From a bacterium (GTDB lineage Bacteria > SM23-31 > JAUVVT01): 10,449 nucleotides of DNA. The position numbers and the translations under genes were made by a program. Position 1 is the first letter of the stretch. Each line of letters begins with the position of its first letter. This document shows positions 2,713 through 7,107 of the stretch, in pieces. Under the pieces are notes generated by a model. The model searched no databases. It worked only from the letters and a program-made list of their open reading frames with translations, and was not told where the DNA came from. The stretch is taken from the NCBI GenBank assembly GCA_030616165.1, contig JAUWXV010000127.1, positions 1-10,449 of the forward strand, given 5' to 3'.

Positions 2713-2820
2713 TAAATTATTATTAAAATTTGTAAAATTATTGTTTTTCAAAGTTATATTTTCTTTCTAAAATTATAATGGTCTTTGGTTTTATCTAATT
2801 CTGAATTATCTTAGTCAAAA

Positions 2821-2827
2821 AGGAGGT
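2821..2827 (+). promoter_or_regulatory. Strong Shine-Dalgarno (AGGAGGT) of the activase gene
   Basis: This is a near-full match to the anti-Shine-Dalgarno. It lies 8 bases before a TTG (2836) and 11 bases before the in-frame ATG that follows directly (2839). The spacing favours TTG slightly and codon preference favours ATG. The product differs by one residue only. Confidence 0.8.
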
Positions 2828-2835
2828 CTGCTAAG

Positions 2836-5800
2836 TTGATGCGTATTAATGAGGATATTGTTGTTGGTATAGATGTGGGTTCAGTAAGTGTAAATACAGC
2901 GGTATTGGGAAGAAGTGGGAATGTTTATGAGACAAGTTACATAAGGCATTATGGTCAGCCTTTAGAAACTGTTATAAATTCATTTCAAAAGATATTAGAT
3001 AAATATAATTGTGAGGAAATTTCAAGTGTTTCGGTAACTGGTTCTGCGGGCGAGATAATTTCTGAGTTACTGGGTGCAAGTTTTAACAACGAGGTTATTG
3101 CTGTAGCAAAGGCGATTGGACACTTGCATCCTGAAATAAAAACGGTAATTGAACTCGGTGGAGAAGATTCAAAGTTTATGATTTTAAATCCTGATAAGAA
3201 AGAGAGTAAAGATGGTTTATACTTGAAAGATTTTTCTATGAATACAGTTTGTGCCGCAGGAACTGGTTCATTTCTTGACCAGCAAGCATCACGACTTGGA
3301 ATTAATATTGAAAATGAGTTTGGGGAGATGGCTTTAAATTCGAAGTATCCTCCTCATATTGCGGGCAGATGTTCTGTTTTTGCCAAATCTGATATGATTC
3401 ATCTTCAGCAGATCGGGACACCAGATTATGATATCGTTGCAGGACTTTGCTTTGCTGTGGCGAGAAACTTCAAAAGTACTATTGCAAGGGGTAAAAAGAT
3501 TATAAAACCTGTGGCTTTTGTCGGAGGTGTTGCTTACAACAAAGGTATGATAAGAGCATTTAAAGATGTTCTTGATTTAGACGAGGAAAATTTTATTATA
3601 CCAAAATTTTATGATTGCCTTGGCGCGATTGGAACGGCGTTAATTGAAATTGAAGAAAAAAAGAGCGTAGGATTTATTGGTCTTGACAGGATAAAAAGTT
3701 ATGACAAGACTTCTAAAAAGATTAAAAGCAATCTTAAAAAACTAACACTTGAAAAATCACGAAAGATTGAACCTGTTAAAGTTGATTCAAAGATACTCGA
3801 AGCAGAAAAAATAAATGTATATCTGGGGATTGATGTTGGGTCTGTGAGCACTAATGTAGTATTAATAGATGAAAATAATAATGTGCTTGCAAGCAGGTAT
3901 CTCCCCACAGCAGGGAGACCTATTGAGGCTGTAAAACGGGGACTTAGAGAAATAGGTGAAGAGATAGGATATAAAACAGTCGTAAAGGGAGTTGGGACAA
4001 CCGGTTCGGGAAGATATATGATTGGTGACCTTATTGGAGCAGATATAGTAAAGAATGAGATTACCGCACATGCGAGGGGTGCGATTGAGATTGATCCGAG
4101 TGTTGATACAATCTTTGAGGTTGGTGGGCAGGATTCAAAGTATATTTCGATTGATAACAGTGTTGTTGTGAACTTTGAGATGAATAAAGTTTGTGCAGCA
4201 GGAACGGGCTCTTTCCTTGAAGAACAGGCAGAAAAATTAAATATGAATATCATCAGAGAATTTGAAGTTAAAGCAATGAGGTGTGATAGCCCTGCAAAAT
4301 TTGGCGAGCGGTGTACAGTATTCATTGGTTCCGACCTTATTACGCACCAGCAAGCAGGTGCTTCTAAAGAGGAACTCGTTTCGGGACTGGCTTATTCCGT
4401 TGCACAAAATTATCTGAACCGTGTTGTAATTAAAGGAAAGATAGGGAATAATATTTTTTTTCAGGGTGGGACTGCAAACAATATGGCGGTTGTAGCAGCG
4501 TTTGAGAAGATATTAGATAAGAAAATAACCGTCCCTCCTCATAATGATGTTATCGGTGCTATTGGGGTCGCAATACTTGCCAAAGAAAATTGTAAAGATA
4601 CTCCAAGTAGATTCAAAGGATTTGATTTCTCAAAGAGAAAATATTCATTGAAATCTTTTATCTGTAAAAAGTGCCCAAATCGCTGCGAAGTAAAGATGGT
4701 AAAGATAGAGAATGAAAAGCCGCTGTTTTATGGGAGCAGATGTGAAAGATATGATTATGATAAAAAGATATCACTTGGAGAAAATCTTCCTGATATCTTT
4801 GAAATGAGAGAAAAACTGTTACTTGGAGAATTTTATGATAAAGGTGAATCAGGTAGAATAGTCAAGAAAAGAGAAAAAGATAGAAAAAAATCTGAAAAAC
4901 CGAGAGTGGGCTTCCCAAGAATGCTCCAATTTTTCGAAAACTTTCCATACTGGAAGACCTTTTTTGAGTCTGTAGGATGGGAAGTTGTAATCTCAGACAG
5001 GACTTCAAAAGAGATTATAGAAGAAAGTGCAGATTATATAACTGCTGAATTTTGTTTTTCTGTAAAAGCTGGCTTTGGTCATGTGGTCAATCTTTTGAAA
5101 AAAGATATCGACTATATATTTCTTCCAAGTCTTATTAGTCAGTCTAAGATATCATCAAATTTTTCAAATGCATACAATTGCCCGTATATCCAGTCAACCC
5201 CATATATATTGAAAAGTGGAATCGATTTTGATAAAACTGGAGTAAAAATTATAGAACCCCATCTCAATTTTCAGAAGGGAAGAAAATTTATTGAGAATGA
5301 GTTAATTAAATGTTTCAAAGCGTTTAGACTAAAAAAATCAAAGATAATAGAGGCTATAAATGAAGCCGAGAAGGCGGATGCAATATTTAGTGAAGAACTT
5401 AATAAAATTGGAGATGAAGTTTTAGCCGATTTGGAGAATGGTAAGTATGAAGAAGTAATTGTACTTGTCGGAAGGTCGTATAATACCTGTGACGAAGGAT
5501 TGAATTTGAATATTCCTAAGAAATTTAAAGACCTTGGAGTAGCTACTCTTCCCATGGATTGTTTGAGGATTGAAAATACTGAATGCTGGCGCGAGTTCCC
5601 TAATATGTATTGGAAATATGGACAGAAGATTCTGGGAGTATCAGAGATTGTAAAAAGGTACAGAAATCTTTATTGTGTATATATAACAAATTTCGGATGT
5701 GGTCCCGACTCTATGATTAATCATATCTTCCAGTATAATATGGGTGAGATACCATATTTGCAGCTCGAACTTGACGAGCATTCTGCTGATGGTGGTGTTT

Positions 5801-7107
5801 TAACAAGGTGTGAGGCTTTCCTTGATAGTATAGAGAGTATTAAGGATAAAAAATTAAAAACAAAGAATCCTCCGATAGTCGAGACTAAACCGAGATTGAA
5901 GAAACTTTATCTTCCATATATGTGTGATCATGCCTTTGCAATAGCAGCTGCTTTCAGAAATAGTGGAATCGATACAGAAGTCCTGCCCCATCCAACTGTT
6001 GAATCATCTGATTTAGGAAGGAGGTTTACTTCCGGAAAGGAATGCTATCCTTGTATAGTAACCACAGGGGATATGGTTAAGAAAATCAGAAGTCCCGGTT
6101 TTGATATAAAAAATTCTGCCTTTTTTATGCCTACTGCCTCCGGTCCCTGCCGATTTGGGCAGTACCGCTCTTTGCAGAAGATAGTTCTAAAAGAATTTGG
6201 ATATGATTCTATTCCAATATTATCTCCTGGTTCTGAAAATTCTTACAGAGACTTTGGTAATGTAGGTCGGAGTTTCCGGAAGAAGGGCTGGTATGGTGTT
6301 GTGGCTGTGGATGTGATGGGAAAAATGTTAAGGGAGATAAGACCATATGAAATGAATAAAGGTGAAGCACACCAGGTTTACTGGGAATGCCTTATGAAAT
6401 TAGTAGAAAACATAGAAAATGATGGAGACCTTATAGAACTGATGGAGGAGATAAAAAAGAGAATGAAAGCAATTCCCACAGTAAATTCAAAAAGGAAACC
6501 TGTAGTAGGTATAGTTGGAGAGATATATCTGAGACATAATGAATTCAGCAATAGTAATTTGATTATAGAGATTGAAGACTTTGGAGGTGAAGCATGGCTT
6601 GCTCCTATGGCTGAATGGATATTTTATACAAATAACAGGATGATAGTTGATGGGCTTGAAAATAAAAATTATAAAAAATACTTTATAGGTCTTCTAACCG
6701 ATATGGTTCAGACAAGAATGGAACATAAAATTATGCATATATTCAAGGATGAACTTATATATAATTATGATCCACCAATAAAAGAAATTCTTGAAAATAG
6801 CTCTACCTATATGCACTATTCTTTCGGAGGAGAAGCAATTCTAAGCGTTGGGAAGGCTATTGATTATTATTATAAAGGTGCTTCAGGAATAGCAAATGTA
6901 AGTCCATTTACCTGTATGCCAGGAACTGTAGTTACAGCAATTTCAAAAAGGATTCGAGAAGATTTGGATAATATTCCTTGGATTAATCTTTTTTATGATG
7001 GACAGCAGAATGATATAAGTTTCAGAACAAGGCTTGAAGCATTTATGTTTCAAGTTAAAAATTATAACAATAATGACCGATTAAGGGATAAAAAAGAAAC
7101 TAAATAA
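2836..7107 (+). CDS. Fused 2-hydroxyacyl-CoA dehydratase activase (two ASKHA domains) with DUF2229 and HgdB/COG3581-like domains
   Basis: This 1423-residue protein should be an ATP-driven low-potential electron carrier fused to its own acceptor. ASKHA domain 1 (about 8-275) opens GIDVGSVS and has CAAGTGSF with C139 and GRCSVF with C179. ASKHA domain 2 (about 328-583) repeats this with GIDVGSVS, GGQDSK, C453 and C493. These cysteine pairs match the ligands of the bridging [4Fe-4S] cluster in the activase HgdC. A cluster CKKCPNRC plus C636 (C610, C613, C617, C636) follows, then a DUF2229-like domain (about 690-910) and an HgdB/COG3581-like domain (about 1020-1400) with C1030, C1070, C1073, C1105 and C1360. 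HgdB-like proteins include dehydratase subunits and the double-cubane cluster protein. Proteins of this layout are known as large activase fusions, but their substrate is not established. No signal peptide or membrane segment is seen. The start may be TTG 2836 or ATG 2839. No CoA-metabolism gene lies alongside. Confidence 0.9.
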   Translation: MMRINEDIVVGIDVGSVSVNTAVLGRSGNVYETSYIRHYGQPLETVINSFQKILDKYNCEEISSVSVTGSAGEIISELLGASFNNEVIAVAKAIGHLHPEIKTVIELGGEDSKFMILNPDKKESKDGLYLKDFSMNTVCAAGTGSFLDQQASRLGINIENEFGEMALNSKYPPHIAGRCSVFAKSDMIHLQQIGTPDYDIVAGLCFAVARNFKSTIARGKKIIKPVAFVGGVAYNKGMIRAFKDVLDLDEENFIIPKFYDCLGAIGTALIEIEEKKSVGFIGLDRIKSYDKTSKKIKSNLKKLTLEKSRKIEPVKVDSKILEAEKINVYLGIDVGSVSTNVVLIDENNNVLASRYLPTAGRPIEAVKRGLREIGEEIGYKTVVKGVGTTGSGRYMIGDLIGADIVKNEITAHARGAIEIDPSVDTIFEVGGQDSKYISIDNSVVVNFEMNKVCAAGTGSFLEEQAEKLNMNIIREFEVKAMRCDSPAKFGERCTVFIGSDLITHQQAGASKEELVSGLAYSVAQNYLNRVVIKGKIGNNIFFQGGTANNMAVVAAFEKILDKKITVPPHNDVIGAIGVAILAKENCKDTPSRFKGFDFSKRKYSLKSFICKKCPNRCEVKMVKIENEKPLFYGSRCERYDYDKKISLGENLPDIFEMREKLLLGEFYDKGESGRIVKKREKDRKKSEKPRVGFPRMLQFFENFPYWKTFFESVGWEVVISDRTSKEIIEESADYITAEFCFSVKAGFGHVVNLLKKDIDYIFLPSLISQSKISSNFSNAYNCPYIQSTPYILKSGIDFDKTGVKIIEPHLNFQKGRKFIENELIKCFKAFRLKKSKIIEAINEAEKADAIFSEELNKIGDEVLADLENGKYEEVIVLVGRSYNTCDEGLNLNIPKKFKDLGVATLPMDCLRIENTECWREFPNMYWKYGQKILGVSEIVKRYRNLYCVYITNFGCGPDSMINHIFQYNMGEIPYLQLELDEHSADGGVLTRCEAFLDSIESIKDKKLKTKNPPIVETKPRLKKLYLPYMCDHAFAIAAAFRNSGIDTEVLPHPTVESSDLGRRFTSGKECYPCIVTTGDMVKKIRSPGFDIKNSAFFMPTASGPCRFGQYRSLQKIVLKEFGYDSIPILSPGSENSYRDFGNVGRSFRKKGWYGVVAVDVMGKMLREIRPYEMNKGEAHQVYWECLMKLVENIENDGDLIELMEEIKKRMKAIPTVNSKRKPVVGIVGEIYLRHNEFSNSNLIIEIEDFGGEAWLAPMAEWIFYTNNRMIVDGLENKNYKKYFIGLLTDMVQTRMEHKIMHIFKDELIYNYDPPIKEILENSSTYMHYSFGGEAILSVGKAIDYYYKGASGIANVSPFTCMPGTVVTAISKRIREDLDNIPWINLFYDGQQNDISFRTRLEAFMFQVKNYNNNDRLRDKKETK

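Follow-up and report, generated by a model that had tools for sequence, protein, structure and literature searches.

The 10,449-nucleotide contig JAUWXV010000127.1 (assembly GCA_030616165.1), which we refer to in its full length as the window, carries on its plus strand an open reading frame (ORF) of 1423 codons at positions 2836–7107. The gene is real and is explained in kind: its product is a member of a family known for converting esters to ethers in the membrane lipids of anaerobes. Judged from its sequence and by analogy with characterised relatives, the protein is very probably a single-chain, ATP-driven, low-potential reductase of glycerolipid esters of the PlsA/PlsR–Ger type. In databases the gene is named only "acyl-CoA dehydratase activase"; the present assignment ties it, in a poorly known bacterial lineage, to anaerobic ether-lipid synthesis.

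Domain architecture and family membership

A Pfam scan of the protein found two PF01869 (BcrAD_BadFG) stretches and DUF2229 (residues 690–909), as well as a match to HGD-D at residues 923–999 that is weak and falls under the Pfam cut-off. Along the chain, two tandem activase domains (Act1 and Act2) precede two acceptor halves of HGD-D fold (Red1 and Red2). This Act1-Act2-Red1-Red2 order is the published domain order of PlsA, a plasmalogen synthase of the benzoyl-CoA reductase (BCR) and (R)-2-hydroxyacyl-CoA dehydratase (HAD) family, which occurs as a single ORF in Enterococcus faecalis, Lactococcus cremoris, and Bifidobacterium longum and as the plsA-plsR operon (CPE1194–1195) in Clostridium perfringens (PMC12838417). 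Expression of PlsA in E. coli leads to the formation of plasmalogen (PMC12838417), and plsA/plsR orthologues are found in many anaerobes and in Listeria, where they reportedly function under anaerobic conditions (PMC9702350). The window protein and the Listeria protein align along their full length (27.9% identity over 1475 columns, E 2e-166) and have all 14 invariant Cys in common, which supports membership of the family. Ger, a homologue of PlsA for which two activation domains are described and which is compared here by that description only, converts glycerolipid esters to alkyl ethers in Thermotoga maritima (Tmari_0479) and Desulfatibacillum alkenivorans (PMC13274423, PMC11150832). A preliminary description of the window had called the function of this architecture not established. 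That statement is outdated: for PlsA/PlsR and Ger, which have the same architecture, heterologous expression in E. coli has demonstrated the reduction of esters in glycerolipids, with vinyl or alkyl ethers as products (PMC12838417, PMC11150832, PMC9702350).

Full-length relatives were matched at E = 0 and the architecture recurs across many bacterial families, which, along with 14 invariant Cys residues (see below), puts it far from chance. A match was obtained in 37 of 60 genomes (relatives and sampled ones); across a wider set of 386 genomes, DUF2229 was present in 135 and is thus common. Besides the fused form of about 1400 residues, the family comprises a two-gene form, Act1-Act2-Red1 plus Red2 (e.g., L046, L049, and L087 from Fusobacterium), and a three-gene form with a single activase (L064 and L084 from Monoglobus). 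These natural splits indicate a chain built of separable modules, and the forms in Fusobacterium and Monoglobus match the division into plsA and plsR. Among the control genomes, DUF2229 was detected in L. lactis and T. maritima, organisms near or identical to the experimentally demonstrated sources of PlsA and Ger, and was not found in E. coli, which makes no plasmalogens; this distribution agrees with a PlsA/Ger function. In the assembly that contains the window, which is 90% complete, the 1423-residue protein is the sole one with a HGD-D or DUF2229 match, and the two activase domains above the Pfam cut-off both lie inside it.

Putative cysteine ligands of the activase pair and the acceptor halves

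Both activase domains are homologous to HadI (phmmer; 1.5e-26 for Act1 and 7e-33 for Act2), and Act1 also to HgdC. An AlphaFold2 model of Act1 superposes on MbdQ (9gba_D) with Z 28.6 and 2.2 Å over 257 residues, and that of Act2 on HadI (4ehu_B) with Z 21.6 and 2.2 Å over 255 residues; near the activase Cys residues, the predicted local distance difference test (pLDDT) score of the models is below 50. In HgdC-type activators, each protomer contributes two Cys to a bridging [4Fe-4S] cluster, and such a pair is present in both domains: C139/C179 and C453/C493 are each in register with C127/C166 of HgdC (residue numbers counted off the printed alignment) and are invariant in relatives. Act1 and Act2 would thus form an intramolecular pair in which each domain supplies two Cys to a single shared [4Fe-4S] cluster. 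Class I benzoyl-CoA reductases (BzdNO/BzdPQ, MbdONPQ) likewise have a heteromeric activase pair.

The ATP motifs (DxGS, GGxD, GGxxxN) are present in Act1 and Act2, and both ATP sites of the protein look intact. Among readable relatives, the Act2 residues D333, G335, S336, the GGQD motif, and N549 are invariant. At least one of the Act1 residues D13, D111, and N235 is lost in 19 of 30 scorable domains (L053, L059, L060, and L061 are examples), while both cluster Cys are kept in all, which fits a retention of Act1 for completing the four-Cys cluster. A tree of 71 activase domains places Act1 and Act2 each to one side of a branch (97/93 and 97/99). The six classical activators in it group together, separate from both (100/100), and the single-gene activases of three-gene operons form a group of their own. 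The duplication is thus an old one, after which the halves remained distinct, as would fit an obligate pair.

Red1 matches DUF2229 at 9.6e-62 (Pfam), and its profile aligns with HGD-D at 97% (hhalign), all three Cys falling exactly on the HGD-D core triad. Its model superposes on 3o3m_D, a subunit of 2-hydroxyisocaproyl-CoA dehydratase (Z 15.3, 4.1 Å over 281 residues), and on 7yyl_D, a double-cubane cluster protein (DCCP; Z 14.2, 4.2 Å over 283 residues). The Red2 profile aligns at 96% with HGD-D and at 98.5% with Red1, and its three Cys are all in register with the Red1 triad; in the direct alignment with HGD-D, C1070 and C1360 match exactly and C1105 is off by two to three residues. The ligand spacing of 35/255 in Red2 is close to the 33/252 of BzdO, where C95, C128, and C380 bind a single [4Fe-4S] cluster (PMC11971306), and Red2 is a separate gene in split forms of the family. 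Searching PDB sequences with a profile of the acceptor returned only two unrelated weak matches and no HAD or BCR.

In an alignment of 32 members, 14 Cys of the window protein are invariant apart from gaps and one Ile (at C782, in one sequence). They comprise the two activase pairs, the triads of Red1 (C740, C782, C955) and Red2 (C1070, C1105, C1360), and four further residues, C610, C613, C617, and C636. The same 14 are found in the proteins from Listeria, Haliovirga, Collinsella, and Fusobacterium when these are added in a second alignment. The preliminary description had been right on the fusion in cis of two tandem activase domains and their acceptor, which Pfam, homology, and fold matches bear out, on its recurrence, and on the Cys pair in each activase domain; its intramolecular activase pseudo-dimer is well supported by homology, through the register with HgdC and the superposition of each domain on solved activators. 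All nine Cys that it listed (C139, C179, C453, C493, C1030, C1070, C1073, C1105, and C1360) are present at these positions. Of these, C1030 and C1073 are not conserved, the former being Cys in 3 and the latter in 8 of the 32 members, and the list lacked the invariant C740, C782, and C955 of the DUF2229 half as well as the four Cys from C610 to C636.

These counts also bear on the link that had been drawn to the double cubane, according to which the protein would be a DCCP-like reductase of small molecules. DCCP and its reductase DCCP-R share the HGD-D fold and the ATP-driven reductase partner with the window protein, Red1 superposes on DCCP 6eno as well (Z 13.9, 4.2 Å over 285 residues), and C1030 lies, as judged by eye, close to one of the extra DCCP Cys positions. 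However, a double cubane is ligated by six Cys (PMC11971306), and DCCP has six conserved Cys per subunit compared with three per half in the window protein. Among 19 HGD-D proteins, the three core Cys are invariant and the three further DCCP-type Cys are present in 14; these latter (C40, C273, and C302 in Kp) are conserved in neither Red1 nor Red2, and C1030 is rarely Cys. The link is therefore abandoned, and we consider a DCCP-like function very improbable. Instead, a single cubane is expected in each acceptor half, so that the cofactor set now anticipated consists of single-cubane sites and the uncharacterised four-Cys site. Positions of all features are collected in Table 1.

Table 1. Features of the reductase gene, in window coordinates
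Feature	Position	Strand	Details
Shine-Dalgarno-like AAGGAGGT	2820–2827	+	8 nt 5' of TTG 2836, 11 nt 5' of ATG 2839; direct sequence reading
PlsA/Ger-type single-chain reductase, 1423 aa	2836–7107	+	ORF, Pfam, homology, full-length tree
Act1, first ASKHA/BadF-type activase domain	2857–3660	+	putative ligands C139 (3250–3252), C179 (3370–3372)
Act2, second ASKHA domain	3814–4590	+	putative ligands C453 (4192–4194), C493 (4312–4314)
Cys4 motif CX2CX3CX18C (C610, C613, C617, C636), between Act2 and Red1	4663–4743	+	invariant in 32/32 relatives
Red1, DUF2229 plus HGD-D-like half	4903–5841	+	putative ligands C740 (5053–5055), C782 (5179–5181), C955 (5698–5700)
Red2, PlsR-like second HGD-D-like half	5899–7065	+	putative ligands C1070 (6043–6045), C1105 (6148–6150), C1360 (6913–6915)

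Substrate and clade placement

By analogy with its relatives, ATP hydrolysis in the window protein, chiefly at Act2, would push single low-potential electrons to the acceptor. There, Red1 and Red2 would form a pseudo-heterodimer of HAD/BCR fold, each half with a [4Fe-4S] cluster that is held by three Cys and leaves one iron site open. In this pseudo-heterodimer, a phospholipid would undergo reduction of its sn-1 acyl ester and dehydration, yielding a vinyl ether (plasmalogen) or, going further, a saturated alkyl ether. A mechanism of two sequential electron reductions, protonation, and dehydration has been proposed (PMC8788747). The invariant Cys residues provide clear mutants for dissecting the ATP-driven path of electrons to an unactivated ester.

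Since the protein has the fold and the cofactor ligands of the BCR/HAD family, one might instead envisage an acyl-CoA reductase or dehydratase, with HAD or benzoyl-CoA reductase function united in one polypeptide; indeed, reduction of aromatic acyl-CoA compounds was proposed for a similar fusion in Ruminococcus metagenome-assembled genomes (PMC11362221). The classical systems HgdC/HgdAB and HadI/HadBC, i.e., (R)-2-hydroxyacyl-CoA dehydratases with their activators, share the activase fold with its C127/C166-type ligands and the HGD-D fold with three-Cys clusters. They differ, however, in having a separate homodimeric activator without the Cys4 motif, a heterodimeric acceptor, and CoA-ester substrates, and class I benzoyl-CoA reductase differs in its four separate subunits and in the double cubane carried by BzdN. 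Genes of CoA-ester pathways are absent near the window gene, as the identities of its neighbours confirm in agreement with the preliminary description. Furthermore, 12 of 27 family-bearing genomes are without a classical HGD-D protein, members are found in, for example, Lactococcus and Listeria, the activase domains lie in clades apart from HgdC-, YjiL-, and Bzd-type activators, and those family members that have been expressed yield ether lipids (PMC12838417, PMC11150832). Taken together, these observations make an acyl-CoA substrate improbable.

Several observations weigh against assigning the window protein a glycerolipid ester reductase function. With the Listeria protein, its nearest relative with literature support, it shares less than 30% identity. 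In the full-length tree, the Listeria, Fusobacterium, Haliovirga, Collinsella, and Lachnospiraceae proteins form one clade of eight (SH-aLRT 100); the window protein lies outside it and groups with members from Gemmatimonadota and Prolixibacteraceae, at 49–52% identity. A genome of the window's own class, G004, encodes one protein of each clade (L042 and L057). No conserved neighbour gene was found for the main family among 37 loci, no lipid-synthesis gene adjoins the window gene, and we found no assay of the window protein or its close relatives. Finally, the AlphaFold2 models were built from shallow alignments and are of middling confidence (pLDDT 71 for residues 2–1010 and 63 for residues 595–1423), and Red2 had no structure match of its own in the fold comparison.

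The separate clade and the coexistence of both types in G004 mean that the substrate could differ, so that the window protein might be a PlsA/Ger paralogue that has kept the machinery and acts on another ester or on a non-lipid substrate. That the family does diversify is apparent from a related subfamily, described below, which has lost the Red2 Cys triad. The window protein, however, has all 14 Cys and both halves intact, and the PlsA homologue Ger, despite its altered architecture, likewise acts on glycerolipid esters (PMC11150832, PMC13274423). We therefore deem such a change of substrate unlikely. The clade placement lowers the case for PlsA in the strict sense and leaves membership of the wider PlsA–Ger family untouched.

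As to the product of the presumed ester reductase, it could be a vinyl ether, an alkyl ether, or something else, as sequence alone cannot yet separate PlsA from Ger (PMC13274423, PMC11150832). According to a published tendency, one PF01869 domain goes with plasmalogen and two with alkyl ether (PMC13274423). It had no discriminating power here: all full-length proteins that we scanned, including that of Listeria, gave two stretches. The clade outside the Listeria-type PlsA offers a test set for what separates makers of vinyl ethers (PlsA) from those of alkyl ethers (Ger).

The Cys4 motif, hcp-linked relatives, and genomic surroundings

The Cys4 motif also occurs in the single-activase three-gene forms, at the C-terminus of the activase. 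We infer that it is a metal or cluster site; no description of it was found in the literature examined. Two divergent PlsA-like relatives, L088:5833–9681 (plasmid-borne, from Paraclostridium bifermentans) and L124:7888–11742 (from genome G070, tentatively placed in Fusobacteriota), are 46–47% identical to each other. They retain all four Cys of the activase domains and the triad of Red1 but have neither the Cys4 motif nor the Red2 triad. The absence of both from the same proteins suggests that the Cys4 site works jointly with the Red2 cluster, although the two proteins form one clade and a single event may account for the loss. In these two distant genomes, both genes adjoin genes for hcp (hydroxylamine reductase/hybrid cluster protein) and a cupin, a linkage that suggests a different role for this subfamily. 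The L088 locus also contains genes for a Crp/Fnr regulator, an ABC transporter, a ferredoxin, and a hemerythrin. The P0002-type subfamily had no match in 386 genomes at the strict cut-off of E 1e-150. Both the Cys4 motif and the hcp-linked subfamily devoid of it and of the Red2 Cys are possibly new.

More tentatively, one could picture the Cys4 motif as a fourth invariant metal or cluster site that partners the Red2 cluster, the hcp-linked proteins as reductases that lost both and act on another substrate, possibly a nitrogen species, and Act1 as kept mainly for its half of the cluster, with a dispensable ATP site. We regard this combination as possible rather than probable.

The reductase gene is immediately preceded, on the same strand, by a gene for a radical SAM enzyme of the AmmeMemoRadiSam system (1395–2393); the window further encodes an M29-type peptidase, BirA, a GT2 glycosyltransferase, and a ParB-like protein. 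Tetrapyrrole genes (hemC and cobA/hemD-type) lie in the vicinity of family genes in two unrelated genomes (L043, L052). Among the control genomes, DUF2229 was also detected in Thermus composti and Deinobacterium chartae, from mostly aerobic groups, which is unexpected for an oxygen-sensitive enzyme, and viral contigs contained two fragments only of the family. A different fusion, of one activase domain with an HGD-D acceptor in 685 residues, is encoded on a plasmid of Azoarcus sp. KH32C (L090:4950–7007), with another activase gene and another acceptor gene next to it.

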